A DNA stretch of 64,000 bases, taken from positions 7,874,001 through 7,938,000 of the forward strand of contig NC_088321.1 of assembly GCF_910592395.1 (NCBI RefSeq). Reading direction: 5' to 3'. This DNA comes from Lineus longissimus. Its lineage: Eukaryota; Nemertea; Pilidiophora; Heteronemertea; Lineidae. The first letter of the stretch is position 1; the number at the start of each line of letters is the position of its first letter. The position numbers and the translations under genes were made by a program. The notes under the pieces were generated by a model. The model saw only the letters and a list, made by a program, of their open reading frames with translations. It made no database searches and was not told the origin of the DNA. This document shows, one piece after another, positions 9,736-59,090 of this stretch.

Positions 9736-9801
9736 ATGATGAGTTATTTTACTCGTCCTACCTGTAAGTCATCATCAACATCTGAGTCCCAAGGATGGCG
9801 A

Positions 9802-11135: not shown

Positions 11136-11605
11136 TCATAAGTCTCTCTCAAGAGGAGGCAAGAGCTTTAAGAAAGGACTTGTGATCATCTCCGAGTCCA
11201 CATTCGGGTCAAACAGGGCACACAATGATGCCTTGCATAGGCTCATTGGGAAGTACCCCAACAACACGTAAGCGTGGCTGATGATTTTCCCAATGATGGA
11301 GAAAACATCAGTGTCCATCACATCATGGTCCACTTTTGGGCCCTTAGCATCACTCCCCTCAAAATACTTTGAGAGGGCAGCCTTCAGAAAACACGTCAAC
11401 ATCTCTCGGGACAAGCCATCCATATCCTCTGCAATGTTTTCTCCTTCGAACGTCACATTGATTCGATGGAAAGTCAGTTGGTCATCACTCCTATAATAGT
11501 CCATCAGGTTTAAGATCGACTCACGGCTGATGAACATGTTCTTCTCCACACCAACTCGAATGAAGGTTTTTATCTCCATAGCTGCACTTTGTAGATCTCC
11601 AAGAC
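11136..11605 (-). CDS. Terminal exon: HECT-type N-lobe, prematurely ended
   Basis: The acceptor TCACTTCAG precedes [13 protein letters not shown]. The exon encodes about 155 residues containing the HECT N-lobe signature: INVTFEGEN, then [19 protein letters not shown], where canonical HECT has v.F.GE..D.GGlsREfF. The rest ([20 protein letters not shown]) fits the following helices. A stop at 11136-11138 follows PPLERDL. A normal HECT is about 350 residues, so roughly 200 including the catalytic Cys are missing. In the next frame the reading resumes as [12 protein letters not shown] up to a donor (AAG|GTGAAT), which suggests a frameshift in the GAGAGAGA run. Confidence 0.75.
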
Positions 11606-22474: not shown

Positions 22475-22730
22475 CTAAATAAAAAGAGATTCCTATAGTT
22501 TATTACTCCAAGGCCTAGGCTAGGCCTAAATCCCTAAGAAGCTAAGGCAGTAAGGGTCCCTCTATATACTACTCTGCCTATCCGTCCTGTAAAAAACCTG
22601 AAATCTTGGCTCTCAGAGTAGGGCGTACGAGTTAGATAATGACATATCATATTGTCAAATTTGATCAAAATTTCAAAACAAAAACTTCGGATTTTAATTC
22701 AAAACTTGATCGATGAGAGGTTGTCCTTAA

Positions 22731-22968
22731 CAGAGAGGTTGTCCTTAATAGAGAGGCTGTCCTTAATAGAGAGGCTGTCCTTAATAGAGAGGGTGTCCTT
22801 AATAGAGATGTTGTCCTAAATTGAGAGGTTGTCCTTAATAGAGAGGTTGTCCTTAATATAGAGGTTGTCCTTAATAGAGAGGCTGTCCTTAATAGAGAGG
22901 TTGTCCTTAATAGAGAGGTTGTCCTTAATAGAGAGGTGTCCGCTAAGGGAGGTTCCACTGTATTTGTA
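22731..22968 (-). mobile_element. MITE family A copy with expanded 18-bp internal repeat
   Basis: About a dozen units of GAGGTTGTCCTTAATAGA end at the family terminus GTCCGCTAAGGGAGGTTCCACTG followed by TA. Family A termini (CAGTGGAACCTCCCTTAGCG) and TA flanks suggest a Tc1/mariner/pogo-type origin. It sits in the intron after the last kinase exon. Confidence 0.85.
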
Positions 22969-22986
22969 AATAAATATCATCCCTAC

Positions 22987-23112
22987 CTCTGGCAACCGTC
23001 GATACATGAGTTCATTGGCAGACGGTCGGTATTCAGGCTCACGTTCTAACATGTCCTTTATCAGGTTCTTGAAATCTTCTGAATAGTTTCCTTTCACTGG
23101 GGCAAACTGGCC
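22987..23112 (-). CDS. Kinase exon, subdomain XI (C-lobe end)
   Basis: 42 codons [13 protein letters not shown] then [20 protein letters not shown] and YRRLPE; acceptor CTTCCAG, donor GAG|GTAGGG, phase 0. It contains the invariant RP arginine of subdomain XI. There is no stop, so a further exon must be spliced on. Confidence 0.9.
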
Positions 23113-32100: not shown

Positions 32101-35100
32101 AACTAGTGTCCTTAATAGAGAGGTTGTCCTTAATAGAGAGGTATCACTAAGGGAGGTTCTACTATATGCTTAAATTTACCATTCATGTTCTCACCTTTTT
32201 GAGGACGGGTCTTTGACCAGCTCTGCTCCGACAATGTCTCGAGACAAACCAACCGACACCTGAGGAAGAAAAGTCGACAATGAAGACCTGAAAAACCCGA
32301 CATTTTTTTCAGACATTACGTTATTCAGCCCCTGACCTCGCAGTTAATAATAGAATTCAGGGGTCATACTAAACAGCGTCCACCAGGTTTAAAAGCATAT
32401 GTGACCCGTTCCAGCAAAACCAGTCGCATGTCGCTCTGAGCTTGGCAGGTTGAAACAGACTGTTTGTTCATTTCACGATTGTCTGCCTTTTGTGAAATCT
32501 GACGCCATCAATTTCTTCTATTATCTCCTGGTGTCATCTAGGCTCATCTTATGTGCGACATGCGACTAGTTTTGCTAGAACAGGTCACATATTTAAAGCC
32601 ATCAAGATAAAATCTAATATTCATAAACGAAATAAGCAGGACATTTTCCACATTTTCTGATCGTTTCATGACATTTGTGTGCTAGATTAGCAAGTTGTTG
32701 CCTAAAATGTACCAGCGTTCACTGGTCACCCAGTCGGTGGCCTTGTTGGATTTGACTTGGAGGAAATGATAGGGCTTCCCTATACTACAGGGGCCTTGTG
32801 ATTTTAGACAACATCTCCCTTATTTTACACCTAAATGTCATGAAATTGTCAGGAAATGTGTTCTATGGTGTACTTATTCCATTTATGGCTTCTAAATTTT
32901 ATTTTGATGACTTGATACCTGACTTTAAACCTGGTGGACGCTGTTTAGGATGACCGGAATTCAGGCCTAGCCCAATACATGGTCTATTGTCTTTAAACAA
33001 AGTCCGTTTGGACCTTGGCCTAAATTCCCATTGTTCTACTGACTTATCAAAGGGTTTAAAGGACAAATCATGATCACATAGACCCCAAGAAACAGCTTCA
33101 TGGAGGTTGATACGCTTAAACACGAAAATGCAAATAAAGGTATATGGGGACCCTCACCCCCTCATTTGGGCCCAGGGGATGTTCATTGCCCCGTTTACAG
33201 TAAAGAACTTCCAGTAATTGAAACACAATGGAACATCTCTAAGCGGACACCTCTGTAATTAGGACACCCTCTCTAAGACACTGATTTTGGTCCCAAATTG
33301 GTCATTTTCACTCAATTTCACCTCTGTGATCAGGTCACCTCTCTATACTTCCTCAGTCATCTTCGTCCCTAGTGCTGGGGCATAAGGCCTTCACCTCACT
33401 ATAAAGCACATCGACTCTCAGTCCCAAGGGTGTCCTTAACCTCTTGAATCCCGGTGACTGACCAGTCGCTCATTTTGAAATAACGTTTTTTCCAAACGAC
33501 CGACAGGTCGGTCTCAGTGATATTTTATTCCCTTGAGCTGGGACGCTAGCTTATTGCTTGTTTCAGCGTGTTTGATGTACAGTAGGGTCAGTTAGAGCAT
33601 GCCTGGGTAGATGGCGCCTCGGTACCGGACTTTGGCGGTTGTATGCGGGCGCTATACATCGTGAAAGTCAGACCCAATTTCGCAACCACGTGACCACCCT
33701 GGGACCCCGGGATTTTTAAGTTCTTGGATTCAAGAGGTTAATAGAGCGGTTCTTAAGTACCTGCATGGTTACTTACCCCCAGCAGAGCCTCCAGCTCCTT
33801 GACGATGCCCTGTCCGCCATCTTGTCCCTGAGCGGCGTTACATGCCAAGAAGTCGAGGCGGAGGTTCGCTGCCTCCTTGTTGCCATGGAGACTGAAGAGT
33901 TTGGAGAAGAAGCCACGAATACCTGCGTGGTCAAGGACGGTATCTCTATTGAGCGGCTGTAAATTTAGAGATTCAAAATTGTACATGGAAGACGGAAGTG
34001 TAGAACTTTTTTTAGCCGCATCATTTTCAATGTTGTCAGGCCAAGCTGGCTACCGAGTGGACTAGTTATCACTGGCGGTGGTAGCCACTGAACCAGTTCA
34101 CCGTTAAGGTCAGGTCAGTGCAGGGTTGTTGCTGAACCTTTTTTAGCCACATCATTTTCAATGTTGTCAGACCAAGCTGGCTACCGAGTGGACTGGTTAT
34201 CACTGGCGATGGTAGCCACTGAACCAGTTTACCGTTAAGGTCAGGTCAGTGCAGGGTCGTTGCTGAACCTTTTTTAGCCACATCCTTTTCAATGTTGTCA
34301 GACCAAGCTGGCTACCCAGTGGACTGGTTATCACTGGCGATGGTAGCCTCTGAACCAGTTCACTGTTAAGGTCAGGTCAGTGCAGGGTCGTTGCTGAACC
34401 TTTTTTAGCCACATCATTTTCAATGTTGTCAGACCAAGCTGGCTACCCAGTGGACTGGTTATCACTGGCGATGGTAGCCACTGAACCAGTTCAATGTTAA
34501 GGTCAGGTCAGTGCAGGGTCGTTGCTGAACCTTTTTTAGCCGCATCATTTTCAATGTTGTCAGACCAAGCTGGCTACCCAGTGGACTGGTAATCACTGGC
34601 GGTGGTAGCCACTGAGCCAGTTAAATGTTAAGGTCAGGTCAGTGCAGGGTCATTGCTGAACCTTTTTTAGCCACATCATTCGAAATATTGCCCAAAAGAA
34701 ACGCGCTACCTTTTGGAATTGACAATATGCATTAGTTAGTTAAAATGAAAAATTAATGATATCATATTGTATGATTGTTAGCTTCAAAATAAATATCACT
34801 TGTAGTACTTCATTTTCAACTTTTTGTATCTCTTTTGCCAAAAGTCTATACACTACATATAGGAATACCTGGAAATCTTCAGGGAGATGCTGGAATAAAA
34901 TGTGTAGACCCGCAGGAGCTAAAGGGTTAAAAAACAAAAAGGGAAATTTTATGGGTTTTTGCCACAGGCCGCTGACCCCAGCGCGGTTGTCTGGTGCCCC
35001 CTGGTTCAACCTAGTGCCTCATGACCTGCTCATAGTAAGTAGCCCGAATAACCTACCTTTTCCTCTTTCCCACACAACTGTATCACGCCCACCGGGCTAT

Positions 35101-38100
35101 TTATACTATTTATCATAGTAAGTAGCCCCGAATAACCTACCTTTTCCTCTTTCCCACACAACTGTATCACGCCCACCGGGCTATTTATGCTATTTATCAA
35201 AGTAAGTAGCTCCGAATGACCTACCTTTTCCTCTTTCCCACACAACTGTATCACGCCCACCGGGCTATTTATGCTATTTATCATAGTAAGTAGCCCCGAA
35301 TGACCTACCTTTTCCTCTTTCCCACACAACTGTATCACGCCCACCGGGCTATTTATGCTATTTATCATAGTAAGTAGCCCTGAATGACCTACCTTTTCCT
35401 CTTTCCCACACAACTGTATCACGCCCACCGGGCTATTTATGCTATTTATCATAGTAAGTAGCCCCGAATAACCTACCTTTTCCTCTTTCCCACACCACTG
35501 TATCACGCCCACCGGGCTATTTATGCTATTTATCATAGTAAGTAGCCCCGCATGACCTACCTTTTCCTCTTTCCCACACAACTGTATCACGCCCACCGGG
35601 CTATTTATGCTATTTATCATAGTAAGTAGCCCCGAATGACCTACCTTTTCCTCTTTCCCACACAACTGTATCACGCCCACCGGGCTATTTATGCTATTTA
35701 TCATAGTAAGTAGCCCCGAATGACCTACCTTTTCCTCTTTCCCACACAACTGTATCACGCCCACCGGGCTATTTATGCTATTTATCATAGTAAGTAGCCC
35801 CGAATGACCTACCTTTTCCTGTTTCCCACACAACTGTATCACGCCCACCGGGCTATTTGTGCTATTTATCATAGTAAGTAGCCCCGAATGACCTACCTTT
35901 TCCTCTTTCCCACACAACTGTATCACGCCCACCGGGCTATTTATGCTATTTATCATAGTAAGTAGCCCCGAATGACCTACCTTTTCCCACACTACTGTAT
36001 CACGCCCACCGGGCTATTTATGCTATTTATCATAATAAGCAGCCCCGAATGACCTACCTTTTCCTCTTTCCCACACAACTGTATCACGCCCACCGGGCTA
36101 TTCATGCTATTTATCATAATAAGTAGCCCCGAATGACCTACCTTTTCCTCTTTCCCACACAACTGTATCACGCCCACCGGGCTATTTATGCTATTCATCA
36201 TAGTAAGTAGCCCCGAATGACCTACCTTTTCCTCTTTCCCACACAACTGTATCATGCCCACCGGGCTATTTATGCTATTTATCATAGTAAGTAGCCCCGA
36301 ATGACCTACCTTTTCCTCTTACCCACACAACTGTATCACGCCCACCGGGCTATTTATGCTATTTATCATAGTAAGGAGCTCCGAATAACCTACCTTTTCC
36401 TCTTTCCCACACAACTGTATCACGCCCACCGGGCTATTTATGCTATTTATCATAGTAAGTAGCCCCGAATGACCTACCTTTTCCTCTTTCCCACACAACT
36501 GTATCACGCCCACCGGGCTATTTATGCTATTTATCATAGTAAGTAGCCCCGAATGACCTACCTTTTCCTCTTTCCCACACAACTGTATCACGCCCACCGG
36601 GCCATGGAGAACTAAGGCAACACTGTGAAACTTCTTATTGAGCAGGAATTGGCCTATTAAACCTGAAAGAGAAGGGAGCTGAGGTTAACATGTGTTTTGA
36701 ATACTTTGTACATTTTGGGGATTCTTTTTCCTGCTGTTTTGTATGACGTCATTTCCTTTGATACATCATCATGTCGCCGTCTTTGTGGTTATCTCCGTTA
36801 CGTATTTCGGTTGGGTTAACGCCATTTTTAGAATCATTCGCAGACGTCAGTCCTGTTTTCCTTTATAACATGAAAATCGCACTCTTAGGTATGATTAGAG
36901 TAGAACCTCTCTATTAAGAACACCCTTGGGACTGCAAAGTACTGTCCTTAATAAAGAGGTGTCCTGATTAGAGAGGTCAAATTGAATGGAAACAGCCAAT
37001 TTGGGACCAAAACTAGTGTCCTTAATAGAGAGGTGTCCACTGTACTTTCCTTTCAATTTCTCTTTGATTTGTTGGTAATGCTAATCCGCAATACCATATT
37101 TATTTCATTGCCTCATGTCTGTATATTTGTTTTTGCAGAACGTGTTTTTATCATAATAAATCAAGAACGTTTACTCTTTCACTGCCAATAACGTTTTAAA
37201 ACGTTACTGAAAATATGTCGCTAAATTGCCAATAACGTTTCAGAACGTTATCTCAGTGTTTCCATCTACTCATCAAAAAGTAAACCAAACTATTGATTCT
37301 ATGTTGATTTAAAGTAAACCTCCCGCCATGTCTTCGGAAGTGTTCTCGGAAGGATTCAGTTCAATCTCGTCCCCAGGAAGTGGGTATTTCGAGTCAGGTG
37401 AATTGGTGAAGATAGACCAATTTAGCCCCCTCCCCCCCAAATCCTCATCCTTCTGACTCTCAATAAGTCCTTCTGAGACTGTTATCTCGAGGCGATGGAG
37501 TGGAACCCCGAAACCATCTCGAGTCCTTCCGACACCTATAGTGGTGCGCTAATCTCAACCATCATTACCCTTCCTTTTCATGCTATTGCTAATTCCAACC
37601 ATGACACTTCCCTCTCATAGAGCTATCTCTAACCATGACGATGTCTCGAACTTATATTGCAAAAATGTCACTTGAGGCAGTAGGGCATTCTGTAGAGACA
37701 TAATGTTCTTCGTTTACTTCAAAGTACAGTAGAACCTCCCTTAGCAGACACCTCTCTTATTAAGGACAACCTCTCTATTAAGGACACTAGTTTTGGTCTC
37801 AAATTGGTTGTTTCCATTCAAGTTGACCTCTCTAATCAGGACACTTCTATTAAGGACAGCACTTGTCAGTCCCGAGGGTGTCCTTAGTAGTGAGGTTCTA
37901 CTGTCATGAGTTTTTGGTGCCTAACCTACCTATCAAACCATCAAAAGTCGATGTCTCGAACTTATATTGCAAAAACGTCACTTGAGGCAGTAGGGCATTC
38001 TGTAGAGACATAATGTTCTTTATCTTACTCGAAACCACCAGTAACCGCGGTGGAAAATCGGCGCGGCTTCCCTGACGATCGTACTTCAGCGACCGCGATC

Positions 38101-44024: not shown

Positions 44025-44166
44025 ATGGATCCAGCATTGCTGAAGGAGAGAGAAGCTTTCAAAAAGAGGGCGCTAGCACAACCATCAGTCGAAAAGAGAA
44101 AGGCCCAGAAAAGAACTGAAAATGATCGCTGTACTAAGAAGGCACGGCCAGCGCCAAAACCTAAGG
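44025..44166 (+). CDS. GTF2E2: TFIIE-beta exon 1 (coding)
   Basis: 47 codons plus one base. Starts [20 protein letters not shown], almost the vertebrate start, followed by a Lys/Arg-rich linker. The acceptor TTTTTCTAG abuts the ATG, and the donor is AAGG|GTAAGC. Confidence 0.95.
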
Positions 44167-47100
44167 GTAAGCACCCTACCCTTGAAAGCCTCATACTTAC
44201 TTAGGGCTCTTCGTCCCTAGTGGCACATAAGGCCACAACACAACCTCCAGCCTTTTCAGTCTCGTGCTGCCCGTTGTGCCTCGTTCCATGTCAGCCCCAT
44301 CAGTTTCAGCTCCTTTGACATAGTCCTCCTGGTAAGCACCTACCCTTGAAAGCCTCATACTTACTTAGGGCTCTTCGTCCCTAGTGGCACATAAGGCCAC
44401 AACACAACCTCCAGCCTTTTCAGTCTCTTGCTGCCCGTTGTGCCTCGTCCCATGTCAGCCCCATGAGTTTCAGCTCCACTGACATAGTCCTACTTCATTT
44501 GACTTTGGGCCAGCCTCGTTTGTTCTTTCCCTGGGGGCTCAAATGCAGGGCAGTCTTTGGTATGCTGCTTGGATTCATTCAGAGGACATGTCTAAGCCAT
44601 CAAAGTCTGCAGCATCCGATTACGCGGCAACGTTAGAACTCTAGATCTGCGTCAGCTGACGGATCGGAGAGCTTCATTAGAGATTATCCTTGGCAAGAAC
44701 ACTTGGCAGATCCATCGCAGACACCTGTTTGAAAGCCTCATAGCCTAGTGGTTGATAAAAGTACTGTGGGTTACCACGCAATTCGGCCCAGATTCGGAAC
44801 CAAGGATTTGTGTTCTTGATGAACCGTTGTAGATTTAAGGAACTAATATTCCTGACTCTTCACAGTCATTCGAATAAGACTTGACAAAACACCCGAGTGA
44901 GAATATTTCGTTATCATAATGGATAATGTAGCCTTTATCATTCGATATTTCATTTGAGATGTTTTAGAATAGAAATTGATACCTCACTGTCGGTATTGAT
45001 TGTCTCACAAAAACCGCTCGGATGGAGCTTAAATATTGGCTATGGTTTTGGTCTACATTTTAGCTCCAACCTCGCGGTTTTGGTGAGACAATCAATACCG
45101 TCAGTTCGGTATCAATTCCTTGAAGCCAAAGCTCCTAGTATCTGGTGTTTACGCTAGGGCAAGTTAAAGTCCCCACCAAGTGAGAAACATGAGTAGCTGG
45201 CGTGGACTTCCCTCCTTTGGCCAAAAGACCGGGGGCATAATGGTCAGTATGATGGCCGCGTCCCAGTGTTAACCAGTTCAATCAGAACATCAAGATTCAA
45301 ACAGACTCGACGGCTTCGGGAGTTAAAACTGGCTGTGAAAGAATTTTGAAGGCCAAGTTTGCATGAAAGATTAAGCCTAATGATTTTCATAGCTTTGCTT
45401 GTTGGCCGAAAACAGAAAAGTTTTTGAGTGGCTGTTTTAGTTTTGGTCTACTCTAATTGCAACTGAAAATGTTTATGAGTTGAGCCTTTCAGTGAGTTTA
45501 CTGTTTTATTCATTTCAGCCGATTTTAACTACAAGGCAATGCAAGGAAGTTCACAGTTTAAGTTTGGAATATTGGCAAAAATAGTTAAATATATGAAGGT
45601 AAGATAAGAATACTAATCACTTGGTTTCGTTGACTGTTTTTTCCACCAGAACAAAAGTACCGAAAAGTGTTTTGCCGCTGAAGTAAAATGATCAAATGTA
45701 TGTGCAAATTTGAATAAAGGAGCCTTATAGCTGAGTGGTGAACTCTGACTACCACTTAAAAGGCCCCGGTCAATCCCGGGTAGAACCCAGTAGTGTATTT
45801 CTGGATGAACCGGCGTGGCTTTCAAGGAACGAAAATTCCCGGCTCTCCACAGTCCTTTGAATGAGATGTAAAACCGAGGTTCCTTGAATCTGGTGTCTAT
45901 GCCAGGGCAGGTTACAGACCCCACCAAGTGAGAAACATGAGTAGCTTGCGTGGACTCTACAGGGCTGCCTAACCTTACACATTTGGGGGAAATCTCACAC
46001 ACAGGCCTGTTTACACTTAGTTAGGGCCATTTTACACTTTGACTCCAGAAAATGTCTTTAAAATTGTGCCGAAATCATCAGAAGACCCAACAATGACATT
46101 TCCCTTGCTGTTTTACCCTTTTTACTGAGGGTTTTAGTTTTACACATTGCTGGACGAAGGCAGTTGTGACACTCCATCCGGCCGAAGTCTGGAGTCACTA
46201 GGCCTTGCCGAAGGCGTAGTCGCTAGGCCAATAAACCCAACTGGCGTCTAACCATACTGGCACGCATGAACGCTCATCCCGCCTTGGAGGAGGAATACTC
46301 CGTGGAGAAAATCACCTCCAAGTGCAGAGCAAACGCCCAGGAAGGGGAAGGATAGAAGAAGGGAAATTGGATTCCATCAAATTGGATATCGTGATGCGAT
46401 TTTGGGCTGCACTCACCCTGTTTCTGCGCCTCTCATGTTCGAAGTTGCTCACAATGAAAAACAAATCCCCAACTGATACTAGCTCATATAGGCCAATAGA
46501 ACTTCAGGTGACTTCTTCAATCATAAAATTAACGCGGTTTTGGAAAAATATCTTATTTTCCTCTCCATCGGAAAAATAGAAGTTGTCCTTTAAAGAAATC
46601 AATCAGCAGCAGCTAGGTAGGTTAGAAAAAGCTACACAAAGTCCTTAATAGGTGTCCCTCCAATCTCATCGTACGTCAAAACTATTCACGCTTGTGCGAG
46701 GAATGTTGTAGTGCTGTGTCAAACATTACCGGAATTATTGGAATTCAGGAATACCAGACGACTTGGAATCCTGACTTGGCACTCAATGCCGGGAATTCAG
46801 GATTTTGAATCAGCAGAGTTTGCCCTGATGACGCCAGCGTCGACACTGATGAAACATGGGCCTACCCGATGTGAGTTGTTTGTCTCAGTGATTCATTCCT
46901 AACTTATTGAAACGTTCCTAGAGATTGCATTGTCAAAATCGTGTATCGTCCGCTTTTAATATTTCAGCAACGGCATCAACAGGGAGACACTTATCCATTA
47001 TCAATTGATGACATTCTTGACGAAACAAATCAACTTGATGTCGGAGCACGGCATAAACAATGGCTATCGACCGAGGTAGGTTGTTTCCTCCCACTGTTCA

Positions 47101-50100
47101 CCCTCCTCCAAACTCACTTTATCCCTGGTACCATCAGGGCAAGACCAATATACTGATATTTGATGAAATATGGCTATGGACCGAGGTAGGTTGTTTCCTC
47201 CCACTGTTCACCCTCCTCCAAACTCACTTTATCCCTGGTACCATCAGGGCAAGACCATTATACTGATATTTGATGAAATATGGCTATCGACCGAGGTAGG
47301 TTTCCTCCCACTCTTCACCCTCCTCCAAACTCACTTTATCCCTGGTACCATCAGGGTAAGACCAATATACTGATATTTGATGAAATATGGCTATCGACCG
47401 AGGTAAGTTTCCTCCCACTGTTCACCCTCCTCCAAACTCACTTTATCCCTGGTACCATCAGGGTAAGACCAATATACTGATATTTGATGAAATATGGCTA
47501 TTGACCGAGGTACGTTGTTTCCTCCCACTGTTCACCCTCCTCCAAACTCACTTTATCCCTGGTACCATCAGGGCAAGACCATTATACTGATATTTGATGA
47601 AATATGGCTATTGACCGAGGTAGGTTGTTTCCTCCCACTGTTCACCCTCCTCCAAACTCACTTTATCCCTGGTACCATCAGGGCAAGACCATTATACTGA
47701 TATTTGATGAAATATGGCTATTGACTGAGGTAGGTTGTTTCCTCCCACTGTTCACCCTCCTCCAAACTCACTTTATCCCTGGTACCATCAGGGCAAGACC
47801 AATATACTGATATTTGATGAAATTCTTGTTGAGACCAACCAATGTAAGGTCACCCTCACCCTGCACACCACCCCTCCCTTGGGTCATCTTCTGCATCTCA
47901 TGAGGATACGGGCCATCCATTGAGTATGTACGTACTGAGAGGGGAGACGGTTTAGGAATTTTGGGGAAAATGCGTACAGCTGTAAATTTTGTCCAAATTG
48001 TGTGTACAAGGGGAGGGGTCTCAAAATCCCAAGTTTGATGCGTACATACAGTGGAACCTCCCTTAGCGGACACCTCTCTATTAAGGACACTAGTTTTGGT
48101 CCCAATTTGGTAGTTTCTATTCAATTTGACCTCTCTGATCAGGACACCTCTCTATTAAGGCCAGCACTTGCCAGTCCCGAAGGTGTCCTTAATAGAGAGG
48201 TTCTACTGTACTTAATGGATGGCCCCATACTGGTATCAAGAGCCTTTCGAATCCAGCACCCAAAATATGATTCTGGGCCAGATGACCATCCATGAGCATG
48301 AATGTAGTATAGGACTGAAAAGCCTGTAAGACCTGGGTACAAGGTATTTTTAAAGTGGTCTGCATCCGCAAACTGTGCGTGATATAACGCTGAAAATGCG
48401 GGATATTGATGATAGATACATGATCTGATAGATGTTAAAGCGAAATGTTTATATCAATACTGGTTTGGCAGTAATTCTTCAAAACACCATGAAAACGATA
48501 TTTCCTCTCAATCAACTAGACTTTGATGTTTTCACCCCAAATCTTGGGTTCAGTACTCAGACTGACATTGTCTTCCATGTCATCAAGAAAATTTTCAAAA
48601 AATGTTGATATTTTGAGAACATGTCCAAGTTGTCATTTTGCAATATTTGGAAGAATAAATGGTTAATTAGCGTTGATATCGATATCTCACTTAGCATCAA
48701 TCAGATTATGTATCTATCATCATTACGTTCCAAAATTTTCAGCAACATAATGGAAGAGTTTTGGCTCCACTTACCACTGTGCATGCGCATGGTGAATCTC
48801 TTTTCACCAGGAAAAAACTGAAGCTATTACAGTGGAACCTCCCTTAGCGGACACCTCTCTATTAAAGATAACCTCTCTATTAAGGATAACCTCTCTATTA
48901 AGGACAACCTCTCTATTAGTATTAAGGACACTAGTTTTGGTCCCAAATTGGTTGTTTCCATTCAAATTGACCTCTCTAATCAGGACACCTCTCTATTAAG
49001 GACATCACTTGTCAGTCCCGTTGGTGTCCTTAATAGAGAGGTTCTACTGTACATCGGTGTCGTGAAAAGGTCAGATAGGGACCTGGAATGTAAAGTGCCA
49101 CCTCGTTTGCTGATCAAAATATGAACCTCTCAAATGTCTCGTAACCCTTGTAGGCCCTCGTCAACAATCAGGACACCTCTCTATTTAGGACATCACTTGT
49201 CAGTCCCGTTGGTGTCCTTAATAGAGAGGTTCTACTGAACTTCGTAGTCTTGAAAAAGTCAGACAGGGACCTGGAATAGAAAGTGCCACCTTGTTTGCTT
49301 ATCAAAATCTGAACCTCTCTAATGTCTCGTAACCCTTGTAGGCCCTCGTCAACAATCAGGATACCTCTCTATTAAGGACATCACTTGTCAGTTCCCTTAG
49401 TGTCCTTAATAGAGAGGTTCTACTGTACTTCGAAGTCTTGATAAAGTCAGACAGGGACCTGGAATATAAAGTGCCACCTTGTTTGCTGATCAAAATCTGA
49501 ACCTCTCTAATGTCTCATAACCCTTGTAGGCCCTCGTCAACAATCCCAAGATCAACGTCGTGGATGACAATAAGTTTGTCTTCCGCCCGAAGTATAACAT
49601 CCGAGACCGGAGGGGGTTAATGTGATTGCTGGAGCGGAATGACCTGAAAGGATTGGGCGGTGTTTTGATGGACGACGTCGAAGAGGCTGTGCCGAAATGT
49701 GGGCGAGTTATTCAGGTAGGCGCCGAGCTGACACGAGTGTCCTCTTTAACGCTATAACACCTAGAGCCAGCGCAAGGGCTTATTCCCCTTGGCCCCGACT
49801 TTATTTTACCTGGAAATCATGTTTTTTTCTCCAGTGAGATCGACGGCGGTTGTCACCGGGCGCCTCCAGGTGTTATAGGGTTAAGAAACTCTCTAACAAG
49901 TTTATGCTGCAATAGACACCAACCTAGCATCTTCCATTGATGTCCATTGCAATATTACAAATTCAGTTTTTTTTTTGCAAACTTCTCTACAGGCTCATGC
50001 TGCACCCGAATGCCACCAACCTTAATTCGAATGCTCTATTAAATCACGGAGTTCAAGCATACCGTGCTATACACCCAAGTGAAGAGTCCATTGATCATGT

Positions 50101-53100
50101 TCTCAGTTATGCAGAGTACTTCATAACACTCGGGTATGTTTTTGTATCGCTATACACCAACAAGTTAAAATGTATGTTTGTTCATCCTGAATATGAAGGA
50201 GGCAATAATTGGTGGAGCCCCTGAAATAAGGCCCAGGTTTGATCCCCTTCTCAAGGAACAGTGTGGTCAACACTGCTTCCTACCCTGCAATAAGGCCCAG
50301 GTTTGATCCCCTTCTCAAGGAACAGTGTGGTCAACACTGCTTCCTACTCCGCAATAAGGCCCGGGTTTGATCCCCTTCTCAAGGAACTGTGTGGTCAACA
50401 CTGCTTCCTACCCTGCAATAAGGCCCGGGTTTGATCCCCTTCTCAAGGAACTGTGTGGTCAACACGGCTTCCTACCCTGCAATAAGGCCCTGGTTTGATC
50501 CCCTTCTCAAGGAACTGTGTGGTCAACACTGCTTACTACCCTGCAATAAGGCCCGGGTTTGATCCCCTTCTCAAGGAACTGTGTGGTCAACACGGCTTCC
50601 TACCCTGCAATAAGACCCGGGTTTGATCCCCTTCTCAAGGAACTGTGTGGTCAACACTGCTTCCTACCCTGCAATAAGGCCTGGGTTTGATCCCCTTCTC
50701 AAGGAACTGTGTGGTCAACACTGCTTCCTACCCTGCAATAAGGCCCGGGTTTGATCCCCTTCTCAAGGAACAGTGTGGTCAACACTGCTTCCTACCCTGA
50801 AATAATGCCCGGGTTTGATCCCCTTCTCAAGGAACTGTGTGGTCAACACTGCTTCCTACCCTGCAATAAGGCCCGGGTTTGATCCCCTTCTCAAGGAACT
50901 GTGTGGTCAACACTGCTTCCTACCCTGCAATAAGGGCCGGGTTTGATCCCCTTCTCAAGGAACTGTGTGGTCAACACTGCTTCCTACCCTGCAATAAGGC
51001 CCGGGTTTGATCCCCTTCTCAAGGAACTGTGTGGTCAACACTGCTTCCTACCCTGCAATAAGGCCCGGGTTTGATCCCCTTCTCAAGGAACTGTGTGGTC
51101 AACACGGCTTCCTACCCTGCAATAAGGCCCGGGTTTGATCCCCTTCTCAAGGAACTGTGTGGTCAACACTGCTTCCTACCCTGCAATACGGCCCGGGTTT
51201 GATCCCCTTCTCAAGGAACAGTGTGGTCAACACTGCTTCCTACCCTGAAATAAGGCCCAGGTTTGATCCCCTTCTCAAGGAACTGTGTGGTCAACACTGC
51301 TTCCTACTCCGCAATAAGGCCCTGGTTTGATCCCCTTCTCAAGGAACTGTGTGGTCAACACTGCTTCCTACCCTGCAATAAGGCCCAGGTTTGATCCCCT
51401 TCTCAAGGAACTGTGTGGTCAACACTGCTTCCTACTCCGCAATAAGGCCCTGGTTTGATCCCCTTCTCAAGGAACTGTGTGGTCAACACTGCTTCCTACC
51501 TTGGAATAAGGCCCGGGTTTGATCCCCTTCTCAAGGAACTGTGTGGTCAACACTGCTTCCTACCCTGCAATAGATCCGGGTTTGATCCCCTTCTCAAGGA
51601 ACTGTGTGGTCAACACTGCTTCCTACCCTGCAATAAGACCCGGGTTTGATCCCCTTCTCAAGGAACTGTGTGGTCAACACTGCTTCCTACCCTGCAATAA
51701 GACCCGGGTTTGATCCCCTTCTCAAGGAACTGTGTGGTCAACACTGCTTCCTACCCTGCAATAAGACCCGGGTTTGATCCCCTTCTCAAGGAACTGTGTG
51801 GTCAACACTGCTTACTACCCTGCAATAGATCCGGGTTTGATCCCCTTCTGAAGGAACTGTGTGGTCAACACTGCTTCCTACCCTGCTATAAGGCCCGGGT
51901 TTGATCCCCATCTCAAGAAACTGTGTGGTCAACACTGCTTCCTACCCTGCAATAAGGCCCGGGTTTGATCCCCTTCTCAAGGAACTGTGTGGTCAACACT
52001 GCTTCCTACCCTGCAATAAGGCCCGGGTTTGATCCCCTTCTCAAGGAACTGTGTGGTCAACACTGCTTCCTACCCTGCAATAAGGCCCGGGTTTGATCCC
52101 CTCCTCAAGGAACTGTGTGGTCAACACTGCTTCCTACCCTGCAATAAGGCCCGGGTTTGATCCCCTTCTCAAGGAACTTTGTGGTCAACACTGCTTCCTA
52201 CCCCGCAATAAGGCCCGGGTTTGATCCCCTTCTCAAGGAACTGTGACCGATGGGACTGGTCATCTGTGGCCGTGGTGGGGTAAAGGAAGGAAGAACTGCA
52301 AATATAGTGGTTTGAAATGTATGATAACAGCTCTTGGCATAAGGTATAAATGGACTGGCATTGAGCGATAGGGGTCAAACCCTGAGAAGGCCTTGAATTA
52401 CATATGTTGGAATAAAGGAGAGAATGAGAAGAACTAGATTGTGCTGCCATCTAACTTTATGCAGCACAACTACAATACAAATAATTTAAAGGGATACTAT
52501 AAGATTCTCCAACAGAACATTCCTGGCTCAGCACAAAACCTACAATGTATGAAATACGTGAGGGTCTGTCGGATGAGACTGATAGCCGTGGTCCCTTGTA
52601 CCTGAGTGCCTATGCCAGGACAAGTAAAAGATACCACATAGGTCGACAGTAGCCTTCAGTGGACTCCAACTCTCCTGCAGAGATCAAAGGGTAATGACGC
52701 TGGTATTGTTATGATATTGGACTGTGGCTTCATAGGGTATTGGTACGATGCTCTTGTCATCAGTGACAAGGCTTGCTCAAAATACAATAGGTTTTTGATC
52801 ACTTTTAACCAAATTATGATATTTTTCCAGGAAGAGTTAACATGAGGTAAAGACAGTCAATGAGTTTCACACTGCAATCTCTTAGACCGTTGTCTAAGCT
52901 TCTTTGAACATGCTGGTTGGCTGGTTGGAAGAATGCGTTTTAAAACTTATATGCAGTGGTACCTCCCTTAGCGGACACCTTTATATAAGGGACAACCTCT
53001 CTATTAAGGACACCTCTCTATTAAGGACACTAACTTTGGTCCCAAATTGATTGTTTCCATTCAATTTGACCTCTCTAATCAGGACACCTCTCTATTAAGG

Positions 53101-54197
53101 ACACTAGCTTTGGTCCCAAATTGGTTGTTTCCATTCAATTTGACCTCTCTAATCTGAACACCTCTCTATTAAGGACACTAGCTTTGGTCCCAAATTGGTT
53201 GTTTCCATTCAATTTGACCTCTCTAATCAGGACACCTCTCTACTTAGTACTTGTCAGTCCTGAGGGTGTCCTTAATAGAGAGGTTCTACTTTGGATTGTT
53301 TAAACTTCACTTGATCTTGCGCATTGATAAAGTAGTCCGAATTCTTAACTCCTTAAAAAGTTCAGCAAGTTCCATCAGCTGGCTTGCAAAAATAGGAGGA
53401 CGACGCATGTTTGAAGTAATGACATCACAATGCATTACATACTGTGTTGAAATCTAACGTCGTACACGACATAAGGTCATTAAGGTCACGACATTAGGTC
53501 ATGAAGGTCATGTATAGGGATGACCTGGACAAACATTTAGAAGGACCAGAGGGGGTGGTACTTTCTTACTTTCTACCATAATTACTCCTGAATTGAAAGC
53601 CTGTTCAATCTCACTTTCTACCACAATTTCTCATGAATTGAAAGCCTGTTCAATCTTACTTTCTACCACAATTTCTCATGAATTGTAAGCCTGTTCAATC
53701 TTACTTTCTATCACAATTTGTCATGAATTGAAAGCCTGTTCAATCTTACTTTCTATCACAATTTGTCATGAATTGAAAGCCTGTTCAATCTTACTTTCTA
53801 TCACAATTTCTCATGAATTGAAAGACTGTTCAATCTTACTTTCTACAGCAATTGGGCAGCCAAATCACCAAAATCACGCGACCCGCCGATAAAAAAGAAA
53901 TCCTCTTCTACAACGATAAGAGCTTTGACTTCACAGTTGACGAGGGTAAGGACACTCTGATTGCTCAGTGGTTCTCATTTGCATAGGAAAGCTTTTGGTT
54001 TTCAAAGTACTATGAGTCTGATATCAAGTACAGTTTGTTTGCTTGTTTTTTCCAACTACAGTAGAGGTTGTCATCTAGTTTCGAATGTTTTAACCCCGCA
54101 CTGTCCCGAGACCTTTCAGGACTTTGATGAGCTTCCATTTTTTAGCTCAGCTGACAAGCTGAGCTATTCATATGAGTAAATGGAAGAATGAATGTCC

Positions 54198-54232
<35 letters not shown>

Positions 54233-57200
54233 CGTTAAACAGGCACGTTTCAAAACTATGGCAGATAGGCGATAGATTTTCCCTATAAGCCATTTAGACC
54301 CTTCAGGACTCCTGAATAGACAAAGTGTGGGTCCGGCAGGATTAACAGTTTGGCCACCAGAGGGCAAAAAGCCTAAATCACAAAACAATTTTTTGGCGCT
54401 TTATTCAAGCAGATAGAAGCTTGAAATAAAGTTGAAAAGGACCGCATGCATGTAGGTCTTGAAACTACTAAGAGTAGTTTTGATTGATACTACCAGTTGG
54501 CGTTACTGAGCCAAAATCTGTGTTGACCTAGTTTAAGCTTGATTTGAATTTCCCGCTCTTGTATGACTCTGAAGGTTGTGGGTTCCAATCCCACTTCGGG
54601 TCAATTTTTTTTTTTTTTAATTTTTACTTTTTTCACTTGTAAATACATTTTCTTTACTTTTTAGCTCACCTCTTAGCAGAGGTGAGCTTATTCCATACCG
54701 TGGCGTCCGTCGTAGGCGTCGTCGTCGTCGTCGTCCGTCGTCCGTTAGCAGGGCACGTTTCGTAACTGTTAAAGCTATTGAGTTGAAACTTGGTACACAT
54801 GTACCCTTATGTAATGACACCTTGGAGACCAAGTTTCGGTCCGATTCGTTTCATGGTTTGGCCACCAGGGGGCCAAACGTTAAAAGTGAAAATATGCAAT
54901 ATCTCCCTTAATAGTAGTCGGGAAATTTTGAAAAAAATATGGTAGGTACTTCTAGCAAAGGTGCATCATATATCCTCCGGGTTTTTGATTTGACCTCCTT
55001 TTTAAGGTCACAGAGGTCAAATGGTGTAAATTGGCCGTTAGGATGTAACGATGGCACGTTTCTAAACTGCAATGACTATTGATACCAAATTTGGTACACA
55101 TTTACCCCTTAGTCAGGTGATCTCAGGGACCGAAGTTTGGTCCAATATGATTCACCACTTGACCACCAGGGGGCAAAATCCAAAAACCTTAAAAATGTGA
55201 TTATTCCTTAACTTCTTGCCCGATTGCCACCAATTTGATATCATGGATACATCTAACCACCATACAGTATATGTCACACAGGTTTTTAATTTGACCTTCT
55301 TGTCAAGGTCACAGAGGTCAAATGGCGTAAATTCGCCGTCAGGCTGTAACGATGGCACGTTTCTTAACTGCAATGACTATTGATCACAAATTAAGTACAC
55401 ATGTACCCCTTGGTCAGGTGATCTCAGGTACCGAAGTTTGGTGCGATCTGATTTGCCGTTTGGCCTCCAGGGAGGGGGCCAAATCCTAAATTCTTCAAAA
55501 TGCCATTATTCCTAGTAATGACTTGCCCGATTGGCACCAATTTCATATCATAGGTACATCTAATTCTAACAACCATTCAATGTGTCACCCGGGTCTTCTT
55601 TGATTTGACCTACTTTTCAAGGTCACAGAGGTCGAATGTACTGTAAATTGGCCATTTTGGGGAAATAGTAATTGCTTGGACCTACATCAAACCTAACACT
55701 ACATGACACAATACCATGCTCTTTATCCATCTTTCCTCCACATGAGGTGAGCACAATGGCCCTGGCCATTTCATTTGAATAATTTGGTGGGCGGCCATCT
55801 TGGTTTTTTTTTTCTATTTTAAAGCCTTTGCTGTATCCAGAGTGACATGAATTTTATGGTTGGTGTACAATAAGTCTCCTTTACATGATATCACATGGGC
55901 TTTCTATTTGACCTACTTTTCAAGGTCAGCCTGGCTCAGGCACTTAGATTTGACTAATAAGTGGCATATTTGTCACCATTTAAAAGTCTTTTTACTTTGG
56001 TATGTTTGCCTGATATATTGACAAAACTGAGGTTGAAAGAGATCTATCGGGTACTTTCCATGTTCATATATTTCAGCTGAGCGCCAGGCCCTTGGGCCTC
56101 TTGTTAAGAAGTTTTATTTGTGGCACTATAAAATACAATGAAGACAACAGTGTAGGCCTTTCACTACAAGACTACAATGCCCTTTCAAAATGTTCTGCTT
56201 TTTATTCAGAATTTATAAAATTATGGCGAGGCGTGTCCGTAGATGGGGTAGATGAAAATAAGATAGATGAGTACCTGGACCAGCGGGGAATCACTACCAT
56301 GCAGGACGTCGGAGCAAAAACAGCAGTAAGTTCCAATGGGTGGTGCATAACTGATGGAACAGCCCTGATGTATTGTTATGTAATGGTATGTGTATGCCGC
56401 AAGGCTGTTCCAAGGTATGAACTGCATCCTATGGCAAAGGTTGCAGTAGCTTCAATGGGTGGTGCAAAACTGATCGAACAGCCCTGATGAATTGTTTTGT
56501 AATGGTACGTGTATGCGGCAAGGCCGTTCCAAGGTATGAACTGCAGCCTGTGGCAAAGGTTGCGATAGCTTCAATGGGTGGTGCAAAACTGATGGAACAG
56601 CCCTGATGAATTGTTTTGTAATGGTACGTGTATGCGGCAAGGCCGTTCCAAGGTATGAACTGCATCCGGTGGCAAAGGTTGCGGTAGCTTCAATGGGTGG
56701 TGTATAATTGATGGTACAGCCCTGATATATTGTTGCGTAGTTGAATGTGTATGCCGCAAGGCTGTTCCGAGAAATTTGTGTCCCCACAGTCATTGATGAA
56801 AATGTATACCCACACTCACTGCTCACTCTCGCAACTTGACAGTTCTATTTTGTAGTTGATCTCACTGGTTTCTATGCGCTGTGGGAGGTAGTTAGCCTTT
56901 CCACAGCCGGCCAGTGGGAGGGGCTGCCTCCTATAGATCCACAGCCAAAGCTGGTGTTATGATCAGAGTGTCCGTCACTGCTCACTGTTCTATTTTGTAG
57001 TTGATGTCACTAGTTTAATTCTATGCGCTGTGAGAGGTAGTTAGCCTTTCCACAGCCGGCCAGTAGGAGGGGCTGCCTCCTATAGATCCACCGCCAAAGC
57101 TAGTGTTATGGTCAAAGTGTCCGTCACTGCTCACTGTTCTATTTTGTAGTTGATGTCACTAGTTTCTATGCGCTGTGGGAGGTAGTTAACCTTTCCACAG

Positions 57201-59090
57201 CCGGCCAGTGGGAGGGGCTATAGATCCACCGCCAAAGCTGGTGTTATGATCAGAGTGTCCGTCACTGCTCACTGTTCTATTTATGGGCCCCAGACCACAT
57301 AGTCTGGGGACCATATTGATATTGCTGGAATTCTGCATTCTATCTGTTACCAAACTTTAGTGTGAGTGTTCTCTGAAACAGCTCAACAAACCAAAAATCT
57401 TTCACCCCAAACCCACCAAGCATACCCCCATCCAAGGGACGTCACTAAAGACTTTTCAAAATTTCGGCTCATTTTGATGTTATTGACGCTTTTATGCTGA
57501 GATTCGTCTGATCGTCTTCTCCCAACATGCCGAAGTCGCGATTCAATCTGACATGCGCTGTGACATGCGCAGAGGCGAGACGCTGATACATTAGCATAAG
57601 CTCCGCCCCGTCATAATGACGTCATTATTCTCAGGAGTTGGTCGAGCGATGGGACGATGGAGGTATTATAAAGAAACCCAATTCGATTCATGGACTATCG
57701 CAAAACGATTTTTCAAAACTCAGAATATTTCGATGCTTTAGATGCGTTTTTATGACTCCAGCTCCTCCCTCTGGGAGCTGGAGTTAGTATTGTTTTCGCT
57801 CAGGTTTCTCGTCCAATCACGTGACCTCTCCAACACTCGATAATGCACTCTTTTCGTCCACGTTTTAGGCCAATCTTCGGCATGAACATGAAATCTAATA
57901 AGCGCAGTACTTAAATCAGATGTTTCTCTCGCCTTGAAAACATTCCTGGGTAAAATCCATTGAGATTAGCCGAGTTAATCTACTTTTTCCGTGATTAAAA
58001 TCTCTGCCGCTGAATTCTATAAATAGAAACTATTAACATCGCGGCAGTGTGGTTCCCATTGTGCGCCCTCCCACTTCACACCATGTCTGCAAGTTTTACG
58101 GAGAGGGAGGGCGTGCGGTAAGAAGAATGGCCAAAATGACGTCACGTTTTCCTGGCAATGCCTCTTGCCGGACCAGTCAAGCATTGGGAAAGCATCTTTA
58201 ATTCTCAATGCTATTTCAATTTCATCTCAAACATGTCTTTTTACAGACCCACCCCTTACACAGACAATGGGTAACATCAAGTCTTCTGTTTTCAAAGTGT
58301 TGGAGAAAGTGTTTTAGGCCTACCTCAGTAGCTGAACTGATAAAACACTGTCCAAGATCAGCAAAGCAGCAACTGAGAATGGTGTCAACAATGTTTTTAA
58401 CAGAAACAAGCCTCAAACACTTTCCCCAACACTTTCAAACCCAAGACTTTACCTCACTCAGTGAGTGATGCACTCTGAACTATACTTACCAAGAACTGTC
58501 TCCACCCTCATTCTCTGGCTAGGATAATGTAATCCATACAACAGTTTACTATCGCTAGGATAACCCAATGCTCCCTCCATCCAATACTCGGGGGCCCATT
58601 TAATTTGCTGTTAAGCAGATTTCTCAATCTAGTTTGTAGTTGATGTCACTAGTTTCTCTGCGCTGTGAGAGGTAGTAAGCCTTTCCACAGCCAGCCAGTG
58701 GGAGGGGCTTTCTCCTATAGATCCACCGGCAAAGCTGGTGTTATGATTTGAGTGTGTTTCTCTCGTGCTCGCTACCATCACTTAGTTGGAGTGCACAGTC
58801 TAACCAGGTGGTGTCCGTCCGCAAAAATCATTATAAGAGATCAGCTTCAGTACGATGCTACCAGTGGTGGCACATGGTGGCAGACAGAGGTATTATCCTC
58901 CTGGCCAGGTGATTACCAGGCCATGGTCGTCTCTTTAACCCACCCCTCCCATTACTGATAATGTCTTCCTCTGTTTCAGGCTCCAGTACAGAAACGAAAA
59001 CGAAAAGGTGGCAATCGAAAAAAGACATTCAAATCACATAACGACCATTTAGGAAACTTGTTAGAAGACTATTCAAACGTGGACAAGTGA
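44025..59090 (+). CDS. GTF2E2: Transcription initiation factor IIE subunit beta (TFIIE-beta), with in-frame TGA
   Basis: Seven coding exons: 44025-44166, 45519-45598, 46968-47075, 49530-49715, 53849-53945, 56210-56325 and 58980-59090. Phases are consistent throughout, giving 840 nt (279 residues plus stop; human has 291). TFIIE-beta pairs with TFIIE-alpha in the RNA polymerase II preinitiation complex in the nucleus and helps recruit TFIIH. Recognisable blocks are [17 protein letters not shown] at the N-terminus, [14 protein letters not shown] and [15 protein letters not shown] (winged helix 1), [35 protein letters not shown] (winged helix 2), [19 protein letters not shown] and the basic [11 protein letters not shown] tail ending [13 protein letters not shown]. 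Codon 142 (49623-49625) is TGA where the family has Arg, which would cut the protein at 141 residues. A 5' UTR exon must lie upstream because TTTCTAG directly precedes ATG. Confidence 0.95.
44165..44495 (+). repeat. 165-bp tandem duplication starting at the exon 1 donor
   Basis: GGTAAGCACCCTACCCTTGA at 44165 recurs as GGTAAGCACCTACCCTTGAA at 44330, with the following 150 bp (TTCGTCCCTAGTGGCACATA) also duplicated. The duplicated unit begins exactly at the splice donor. Confidence 0.9.
44735..45240 (+). mobile_element. tRNA-derived SINE interrupted by a palindromic MITE
   Basis: A-box-like TAGCCTAGTGGTT near 44747 and the SINE body (TTGATGAACCG, TCCTGACTCTTCACAGTC) are broken at about 44973 and resume at about 45118 (CCTAGTATCTGGTGTTTACG, GAGAAACATGAGTAGCTGGC). 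Confidence 0.75.
44973..45117. mobile_element. 145-bp palindromic MITE inside the SINE
   Basis: Ends AATTGATACC and GGTATCAATT. Long inner arms CGGTATTGATTGTCTCAC and GTGAGACAATCAATACCG are perfectly complementary, and AAAACCGC/GCGGTTTT also pair. Confidence 0.85.
45519..45598 (+). CDS. GTF2E2: TFIIE-beta exon 2
   Basis: Encodes [20 protein letters not shown] then IVKYMK. Acceptor TTCATTTCAG, donor AAG|GTAAGA. First helix of the N-terminal winged-helix domain. Confidence 0.95.
45717..46350 (+). mobile_element. Full-length tRNA-derived SINE
   Basis: A box TAGCTGAGTGGTG at 45728 and B box GGTCAATCCCGGG at about 45768 are at tRNA spacing. The body matches the SINEs at 18905, 25245 and 44735. 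A segment (about 45965-46165) not seen in other copies is inserted. A GAAGG-rich tail ends near 46350. Confidence 0.82.
46351..46967 (+). other. TFIIE-beta intron 2, remainder
   Basis: Nothing supported beyond short unconvincing open frames. Confidence 0.5.
46968..47075 (+). CDS. GTF2E2: TFIIE-beta exon 3
   Basis: 36 codons [20 protein letters not shown] then [16 protein letters not shown]. Acceptor TATTTCAG, donor GAG|GTAGGT. Corresponds to the human QRGDTHPLTLDEILDET block. Confidence 0.95.
47061..47826 (+). repeat. 110-bp exon 3 junction minisatellite, 7 copies
   Basis: Starts at 47061 (the real exon end), 47171, 47281, 47388, 47495, 47605 and 47715. Every unit repeats TGGCTATCGACCGAG and a donor (GTAGGT in most, GTAAGT at 47403, GTACGT in unit 5), followed by a pyrimidine-rich intron segment and a TTTGATGAAATA that imitates exon sequence. 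Confidence 0.96.
48050..48211 (+). mobile_element. MITE family A, compact copy
   Basis: TA-flanked, starting CAGTGGAACCTCCCTTAGCG and ending AATAGAGAGGTTCTACTG. 162 bp, close to the minimal family length. Confidence 0.9.
48831..49051 (+). mobile_element. MITE family A, with extra 18-bp units
   Basis: TA-flanked with the same termini. The left arm contains three extra ACCTCTCTATTAAGGATA-type units. Confidence 0.9.
49015..49552 (+). repeat. 188-bp tandem repeat fusing MITE end and exon 4 acceptor, 3 copies
   Basis: Each unit holds the family A right end (CCTTAATAGAGAGGTTCTAC), intron sequence, and the exon 4 acceptor with the first exon bases (CTTGTAG then GCCCTCGTCAACAATC). Acceptor positions 49154 and 49342 are decoys, and 49530 is the real exon. 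After the decoys the sequence returns to MITE (AGGACACCTCTCTATT). Confidence 0.93.
49530..49715 (+). CDS. GTF2E2: TFIIE-beta exon 4, carrying in-frame TGA
   Basis: 62 codons: [64 protein letters not shown]. Acceptor CCCTTGTAG, donor CAG|GTAGGC. Alignment to the family (RDKKALLRLLD) puts TGA at an arginine, one C-to-T change from CGA. The rest of the exon is intact on both sides. Confidence 0.93.
50222..52245 (+). repeat. 64-bp minisatellite, about 32 copies
   Basis: Unit AAGGCCCGGGTTTGATCCCC then TTCTCAAGGAACTGTGTGGT and CAACACTGCTTCCTACCCTG. GGGTTTGATCCC resembles a Pol III B box and the same word occurs in the SINEs here. 64 is not a multiple of three, so no long frame persists. Confidence 0.96.
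52552..52680 (+). mobile_element. SINE-like fragment
   Basis: GAGGGTCTGTCGGATGAGAC to CAGGACAAGTAAAAGATACC matches the fragment at about 31078. Confidence 0.6.
52948..53292 (+). mobile_element. MITE family A with repeated core
   Basis: Starts CAGTGGTACCTCCCTTAGCG. The core (ACTAGCTTTGGTCCCAAATT to CCTCTCTAATC) is tandemly present three times before the right end GAGAGGTTCTACT. Confidence 0.88.
53565..53848 (+). repeat. 45-bp exon 5 acceptor minisatellite, 7 copies
   Basis: Units start at 53565, 53610, 53655, 53700, 53745, 53790 and 53835. CTTACTTTCTACCACAATTT in the repeats corresponds to CTTACTTTCTACAG|CAATTG at the real exon, so the polypyrimidine tract and exon start are copied but the AG is changed to CA in the decoys. 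Confidence 0.93.
53849..53945 (+). CDS. GTF2E2: TFIIE-beta exon 5
   Basis: Encodes [20 protein letters not shown] then [12 protein letters not shown]. Acceptor TTCTACAG, donor GAGG|GTAAGG. Matches human RPDKKKILFFNDKS and following. Confidence 0.95.
54140..54600 (+). mobile_element. Dispersed TTTTAGCTCAGCTGACAAGCTGAGCT element with (CTGT)n and tRNA-like 3' part
   Basis: Begins with a hairpin (AGCTCAGCTGACAAGCTGAGCT), then a (CTGT)n microsatellite at about 54197-54231. At 54572-54600 GTGGG TTCCAAT CCCAC forms a perfect tRNA-like T arm followed by a poly-T tract, but no matching acceptor stem or A box is present. Confidence 0.55.
54659..56105 (+). mobile_element. Long dispersed element TTAGCTCACCTC...GGGCCTCTTGTT
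   Basis: Starts with the hairpin AGCTCACCTCTTAGCAGAGGTGAGCT and a GTCGTC-rich stretch, then about 300-bp internal units (GATGGCACGTTTCTTAACTG, GGCCACCAGGGGGCAAA, CAAGGTCACAGAGGTCAAAT). Ends GCCAGGCCCTTGGGCCTCTT. A widespread non-coding repeat of marine invertebrates, inserted in TFIIE-beta intron 5. Confidence 0.7.
56210..56325 (+). CDS. GTF2E2: TFIIE-beta exon 6
   Basis: Encodes [20 protein letters not shown] then [18 protein letters not shown]. Acceptor TTTATTCAG, donor GCA|GTAAGT. Matches human [22 protein letters not shown]. Confidence 0.95.
56310..56790 (+). repeat. 119-120-bp exon 6 donor minisatellite, 4 copies
   Basis: The motif GCAGTAAGTTCCAATGGGTG at the real donor recurs as GCAGTAGCTTCAATGGGTGG, GCGATAGCTTCAATGGGTGG and GCGGTAGCTTCAATGGGTGG at 119-120 bp steps. 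Decoy donors have lost the GTAAGT consensus. The unit also holds CAAGGCNGTTCCAAGGTATG. Confidence 0.93.
56815..57285 (+). repeat. About 147-bp tandem repeat, 3 copies (a fourth at 58625-58760)
   Basis: Unit GTAGTTGATGTCACTAGTTT then CTATGCGCTGTGGGAGGTAG and CCACAGCCGGCCAGTGGGAG. A lone copy at 58625-58760 suggests a dispersed element that was locally amplified. Confidence 0.88.
57286..58624 (+). other. TFIIE-beta intron 6, remainder
   Basis: Two strong hairpins: CCCCAGACCACATAGTCTGGGG (about 57296) and CTCCAGCTCCTCCCTCTGGGAGCTGGAG (about 57758). They may bound or belong to palindromic MITEs. No exon supported. Confidence 0.45.
58980..59090 (+). CDS. GTF2E2: TFIIE-beta exon 7 (C-terminus)
   Basis: 36 codons plus stop: [20 protein letters not shown] then [16 protein letters not shown]. 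Acceptor CTGTTTCAG. Matches the human basic tail (RRFKTHNEHLAGVLKDYSD). Confidence 0.95.
   Translation, partial: APVQKRKRKGGNRKKTFKSHNDHLGNLLEDYSNVDK

Follow-up and report, generated by a model that had tools for sequence, protein, structure and literature searches.

Arrays at the splice junctions of TFIIE-beta

Why should tandem repeats end at one splice junction after another of the same gene? The question is raised by a TFIIE-beta gene of the nemertean Lineus longissimus, which lies in a stretch of 64,000 nucleotides (RefSeq assembly GCF_910592395.1, contig NC_088321.1, positions 7,874,001 to 7,938,000 of the forward strand) that was analyzed whole and is called the window here. A preliminary description of the window had placed arrays at five junctions of this gene and considered them hard to explain by chance. 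Our analysis indicates that they are minisatellites of the type known from amphioxus as mirages, and that they are probably ordinary local duplications, tolerated because the splice site attached to the exon is the one that is used.

The gene was modeled by spliced alignment to P0001, a L. longissimus protein representing a cluster of nine sequences; the window copy is 99% identical to it and differs at three residues. Six GT-AG introns were solved with a matching protein, which gives seven exons and 12 junctions, all on the plus strand. Arrays were called with Tandem Repeats Finder (TRF) and their edges were read in the sequence. An array end lay within 10 bp of the junction at five of the 12 junctions, in five of the seven exons: the donors of exons 1, 3, and 6 (D1 at 44166, D3 at 47075, and D6 at 56325) and the acceptors of exons 4 and 5 (A4 at 49530 and A5 at 53849). 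Exon 2 (45519..45598) has no junction array, and the gene closes with exon 7 (58980..59087).

Exon 1 (44025..44166) is followed by 2.0 units of 164 bp (44166..44491) that start at the last exon base and hold one decoy donor, G/GTAAGC (the slash marks the exon-intron boundary). Behind exon 3 (46968..47075) stand 7.0 units of 110 bp (47060..47839; 47060-47823 by TRF), each made of the final 16 nt of the exon, the donor, and then intron, and six decoy donors retain GT. Ahead of exon 4 (49530..49715), 3.0 units of 188 bp (48978..49545) consist of a portion of a fold-back repeat, the acceptor, and the initial 16 nt of the exon, with two intact decoy acceptors. The array before exon 5 (53849..53945) has 6.4 units of 45 bp (53564..53853), and AG is missing in all five aligned decoys of the window copy. 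After exon 6 (56210..56325) come 3.7 units of 119 bp (56326..56768; TRF start 56334), whose decoy donors are weakened or lost.

TRF and the spliced alignment therefore bear out the arrays at all five junctions. The further claim, that their units hold the real exon edge, is plainly right for D3 and A4 only. The exon contributes 16 nt to each of these units and 1 nt to D1, 5 nt to A5, and 0-3 nt to D6, so that the last three arrays start or stop at the junction.

For tests across the window we assembled 24 introns with 48 junctions, namely six introns of TFIIE-beta, 12 of a kinase gene on the minus strand, and six of a gene called here the downstream gene. The translation of the kinase gene equals P0121 (LOC135498878) at 723 of 723 residues; its 12 solved introns are the eleven used by P0121 plus one from an extra exon of P0122. 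Two unsolved boundaries of the downstream gene models stand outside the set, as do the junctions of duplicated kinase exons at 18.5-20.3 kb, which were excluded to prevent double counting. The 24 introns contain 20 arrays of at least 60 bp, spanning 10,345 of 31,518 bp. In a cross-junction match test, seven of the 48 junctions reached the floor p value of 0.005, and no match across the junction was detected at D1 (p 0.34). One of the seven, the downstream-gene acceptor at 11605, had a low score (11.6) and was taken as chance.

Thirteen copies of TFIIE-beta

TFIIE-beta, which encodes a general transcription factor, is present in 13 seven-exon copies on the plus strand of chromosome 14 (contig C14, C14:2335893-8412410), the chromosome of the window, between 2.34 and 8.41 Mb and spaced 0.4 to 0.8 Mb apart. 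All 91 genome matches at E 0.001 fell in these copies, whose exons are 94.8-100% identical to those of the window copy. With the exons joined as mapped, the reading frame stays open in 11 of the 13 copies; an in-frame TGA stands at codon 142, in exon 4, of the window copy, and the 8.40-Mb copy has a stop at codon 78. At the mapped boundary, 76 of the 78 introns are GT-AG: one base is missing from the exon 5 donor of the 4.15-Mb copy, and GG precedes exon 7 in the 4.82-Mb copy. Nine copies look intact, with an open frame and every splice site kept. Intron lengths vary up to about thirtyfold among copies with near-identical exons (intron 6, from 392 to 12,439 bp). Several copies are likewise annotated for the kinase gene and for the downstream gene.

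The arrays recur throughout this set. By TRF, D3 and A5 are present in all 13 copies, D1 in 11, D6 in 10, and A4 in nine, always at the same five junctions and with the same exon-side edge; none of the seven other junctions has a TRF array in any of the 13 copies (0/91). Reading the sequence added D1 in the 6.23-Mb copy, where the first unit is shortened, and a short D6 in the 5.78- and 7.49-Mb copies, and left one D1 unit in the 8.40-Mb copy and one cut D6 unit in the 2.34-Mb copy. Unit numbers by TRF range over 4.0-23.0 at D3, 5.4-12.4 at A5, 2.0-7.0 at D1, and 2.6-4.7 at D6, and A4 always has 3.0; with a probe, D3 ranges from 2 to 27 units. The five arrays go back to five founding events that came down to the copies by inheritance; they did not arise afresh in each copy.

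Local duplication as the probable origin of the arrays

The acceptor of exon 4 occurs in two states, three units in nine copies and one unit in four. Counted from the junction, the word AATC stands at -552, -364, and -176 in the nine three-unit copies, where the exon ends lie at -360, -172, and +16; the four single-unit copies have one set, at -165 and +16. The breakpoints thus share AATC, one in the fold-back repeat and the other 16 nt into the exon.

These two states with their AATC breakpoints, and the constant edges with varying unit numbers at all five junctions, point to local duplication. An array would start with one ordinary local tandem duplication whose breakpoint lies at or just inside an exon, by microhomology (AATC) in the case of exon 4, after which unequal exchange would lengthen and shorten it. 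The extra splice sites would be tolerated because splicing picks whichever copy adjoins the exon, so that position decides and strength does not. The exon-side edge would be held in place by selection on the exon, while the number of units drifts. We propose no function for the arrays.

The fold-back repeats form a family resembling miniature inverted-repeat transposable elements, with 63 matches of TCCTTAATAGAGAGG (at most two mismatches) in nine clusters, for example at 48854-49417, 27386-27907, and 52996-53283, and they often contain 18-bp arrays of their own. Their motif occurs in three of nine junction duplications (the five TFIIE-beta arrays and those at kinase donors 1, 2, 7, and 9), namely at A4, at kinase donor 7, and in a spaced copy at kinase donor 1, compared with about 0.13 for each intron window of 200 bp. 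A role as duplication trigger is suggestive but not significant.

Chance and junction preference

Whether junctions attract arrays depends on how placement is modeled. Arrays cover 39% of the TFIIE-beta gene, and when they were placed blind to exons, 4.48 touched junctions were expected and five of 12 observed. With about 40% of the gene made up of tandem array, no junction preference is needed to account for five touched junctions of 12. When placement was confined to introns, 0.16 were expected for the same five (p 5e-5). The earlier judgment that chance is a poor explanation is therefore upheld only if arrays are confined to introns. In the kinase and downstream genes, the part of the window that did not prompt the finding, TRF edges were not enriched (1 of 36 junctions within 10 bp against 0.42 expected, p 0.36). 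We also asked how often the 12 bases flanking a position on each side are found again within 2.5 kb. This was so at 4 of the 48 junctions, at 4.1% of 873 exon-interior positions, and at 34% of sampled intron positions, so that junctions are not favored over introns and arrays avoid exons. Dense arrays that avoid exons can by themselves mimic anchoring to splice sites, which calls for caution.

Several points weigh against an origin in ordinary local duplication. The argument for no preference depends on assumed trimming at exons, and exon-blind placement fails in the opposite direction in the kinase gene, where 6.49 junctions were expected and 1 of 24 was hit. Over all junctions, intron-confined placement predicts 0.59 edges within 10 bp and six of 48 were observed (p 5e-5); with 40 bp of exon intrusion permitted, the expectation is 2.3 (p 0.016). 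The edges of D1, A5, and D6, a few bases from the junction, are more exact than random breakpoints. Four of the 13 copies are damaged, the window copy among them, so that some copies may be under relaxed constraint. The single-unit A4 copies are scattered in the intron-2 tree and form no group; this incongruence indicates that copies exchanged sequence or lost units, which blurs the founding event, and the single-unit state could be a contraction. Finally, use of the exon-proximal site is predicted from annotated proteins.

Some of these points would suit a hotspot, in which exon edges start tandem duplications more often than other places do, as a result of R-loops, breaks, or stalled forks: the excess of edges near junctions under intron confinement, and the almost exact start of D1, A5, and D6 at the junction. 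We regard a hotspot as unlikely. The exon-blind expectations for the two genes (4.48 and 6.49, against five and one observed) do not call for one, and no sixth TFIIE-beta junction has an array across the 13 copies. The preliminary description had offered R-loops as a possible cause, and for these the base composition is unhelpful. Coding-strand GC skew is negative in four of the five TFIIE-beta arrays, which are C-rich on that strand, and positive in D6 and in the three measured kinase arrays; with such mixed signs, R-loops are not consistently favored.

Decoy splice sites

Many of the extra splice sites are in good condition, and yet nine of the 13 genes look intact. Across the 13 copies, all 24 D1 decoys, 156 of 165 D3 decoys, and all 18 A4 decoys are intact (198 in total), whereas AG is kept in only 2 of 106 A5 decoys and none of the 28 D6 decoys reads GTAAGT. 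The D3 decoy at 47402 reads GAG/GTAAGT, which is nearer to the general donor consensus than GAG/GTAGGT, the sequence of the real donor. The annotated proteins nevertheless place their junctions at the exon-proximal sites: the P0001 junction maps to 47075 and not to 47402, and P0121 uses the exon-proximal site at all eleven of its introns. Since intact and even better-fitting decoys are passed over in these proteins, we infer that the exon-proximal site would win by position over strength.

A more active role, in which the decoys regulate splicing or buffer the loss of the real site, would fit the 198 intact decoys. An 84-bp array at donor 2 of the kinase gene would suit it too: four of its 18 decoys, the first four, were tested, and the first two stay in frame and would insert 28 or 56 residues, the other two running into a stop. 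Each of the nine window TFIIE-beta decoys tested (one at D1, six at D3, and two at A4) introduces a stop codon, however, the A5 decoys have almost all lost AG, and unit numbers drift widely, so we hold such a role to be quite improbable. A stop is also brought in by the kinase decoy at 27724.

Intron gain and assembly

Tandem duplication around AG/GT is a proposed route to new introns, and the arrays had been put forward as its possible traces; models of this kind exist for amphioxus globins (PMC3087553) and for Drosophila (PMC2891723). The two ends of an intron should then be alike. One of the 24 introns does have a somewhat longer shared end word (score 11, where other pairs had a 95% quantile of 9 and a maximum of 55). 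Over the 24 introns, the two end regions belonging to one intron agreed at 13.25 of 50 positions, against 13.21 for ends of different introns, and the two ends of intron 3 carry arrays of different units. Duplication that includes a splice site is shared with a known case, but in these arrays the copied edge belongs to an intron that was already present, and the two ends of that intron are unrelated. Intron gain is accordingly very improbable.

Least credible is an artefact of local assembly, which the preliminary description had allowed for: short-read polishing, which was applied to this genome (PMC8593623), can change single bases in repeats, but the arrays lie in an assembly of HiFi long reads (391 Mb, chromosome 14 being 16.76 Mb; same source), each of the five in the window TFIIE-beta gene is shorter than 1 kb, and 13 diverged copies share identical edges with differing unit numbers.

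Arrays in the kinase gene and other genes

The statement that the neighboring kinase gene shows the same pattern was correct for two of its junctions, donors 36562 and 27924, although TRF edges in this gene and the downstream gene show no enrichment. Exon 2 of the kinase gene (36562..36662, minus strand) is followed by 18.8 units of 84 bp (35030..36602), each with 41 nt of the exon, which hold 18 decoys reading AAG/GTAGGT. Besides the window we examined four further stretches for this array: it was reached in two of them, a third contained exon 1 and no more, and the fourth gave no match. The same edge was found in all three copies with the array, which number 18.8, 22.9, and no fewer than 30.6 units. 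At donor 27924 (donor 7), the exon 27924-28027 has a 200-bp tandem copy (27724..28027, minus strand) that repeats the donor together with roughly 45 nt from the end of the exon, in two copies only, with the decoy at 27724. A 65-bp array (24337..24923, minus strand) with the unit AAATGGTACC begins 14 bp past donor 24938 (donor 9), and its junction origin is unsupported in the cross-junction match test (p 0.11).

Exons and introns of the kinase gene are also duplicated internally, 16593-20720 against 20743-27084, with an identity of 97.6-99.0% outside the arrays in the stretches compared. By probe, the duplicates differ in a 77-bp array (two against six units) and in a 65-bp array (six against eight), and one duplicated exon has a 2-base insertion. 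The N-terminus of the annotated protein P0242 (LOC135499171) matches a translation of the 65-bp array (window 18150-18269), which indicates that gene prediction read array units as coding. Elsewhere in the window, TRF found a 4.8-kb array of about 190 copies of a 25-bp unit (4952-9747).

For a wider sample we took seven chaperonin (PF00118) genes on six contigs, from nine multi-exon loci among 58 matches, and read exact junctions only beside arrays. TRF called six arrays with a length of 60 bp or more, and one of them spans a junction. It lies at an acceptor of a gene on contig C20, which we take to be TCP-1-alpha-like, and has 59-bp units with about 30 nt of exon each; the last unit is the real exon start, three decoys have AG, and the protein continues across the array. 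Between the end of a second array, of 66 bp, and an acceptor there are 16 bp, and the other four are about 38 bp or more from readable junctions.

A broader process may be imagined, in which junction duplication runs genome-wide in L. longissimus, seeded by short fold-back repeats near exons through microhomology that copies exon edges. We consider this doubtful. If it were true, many genes would carry dozens of competent decoys, and the spliceosome would have to choose by exon position alone.

Comparison with known mirages

Mirages have been described in amphioxus in Adh3, the globins BflGb6 and BflGb9, TnC, and PGBD5 (PMC3087553, PMC3902484). In these mirages the unit spans an exon-intron boundary, at donors as well as acceptors, with a length of about 10 to 160 bp and a variable number of copies; many copies, though not all, retain AG or GT, and normal splicing is apparently unaffected. 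A literature search that included nemerteans gave no mirage report outside amphioxus among the matches listed. In recently duplicated human genes within segmental duplications, minisatellites vary between copies, and some lie at exon-intron boundaries; about half are coding and alter the protein (PMC2812944). The arrays studied here differ from these variable internal repeats in that they end at or just inside the exon edge.

The Adh3 mirage of amphioxus is reportedly unstable in somatic tissue. Length instability is shared by the L. longissimus arrays, where it is seen between paralogues, although A4 has 3.0 units wherever it is present.

The likeness to the amphioxus mirages extends to the unit, which plainly spans the boundary at TFIIE-beta D3 and A4 and at kinase donors 2 and 7, and with at most 5 exon nt at A5, D6, and D1. 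It extends also to the occurrence at donors (D1, D3, D6, and kinase donors 2 and 7) and acceptors (A4, A5, and the TCP-1-alpha-like gene). The differences are the nemertean host, five affected junctions in one gene, thirteen comparable copies, and units of up to 188-200 bp. The copy set is a natural experiment within one assembly, with 2 to 27 near-identical donors behind the same exon and one junction in both one-unit and three-unit states, and it makes testable both how a minisatellite starts and how splicing selects among identical sites.

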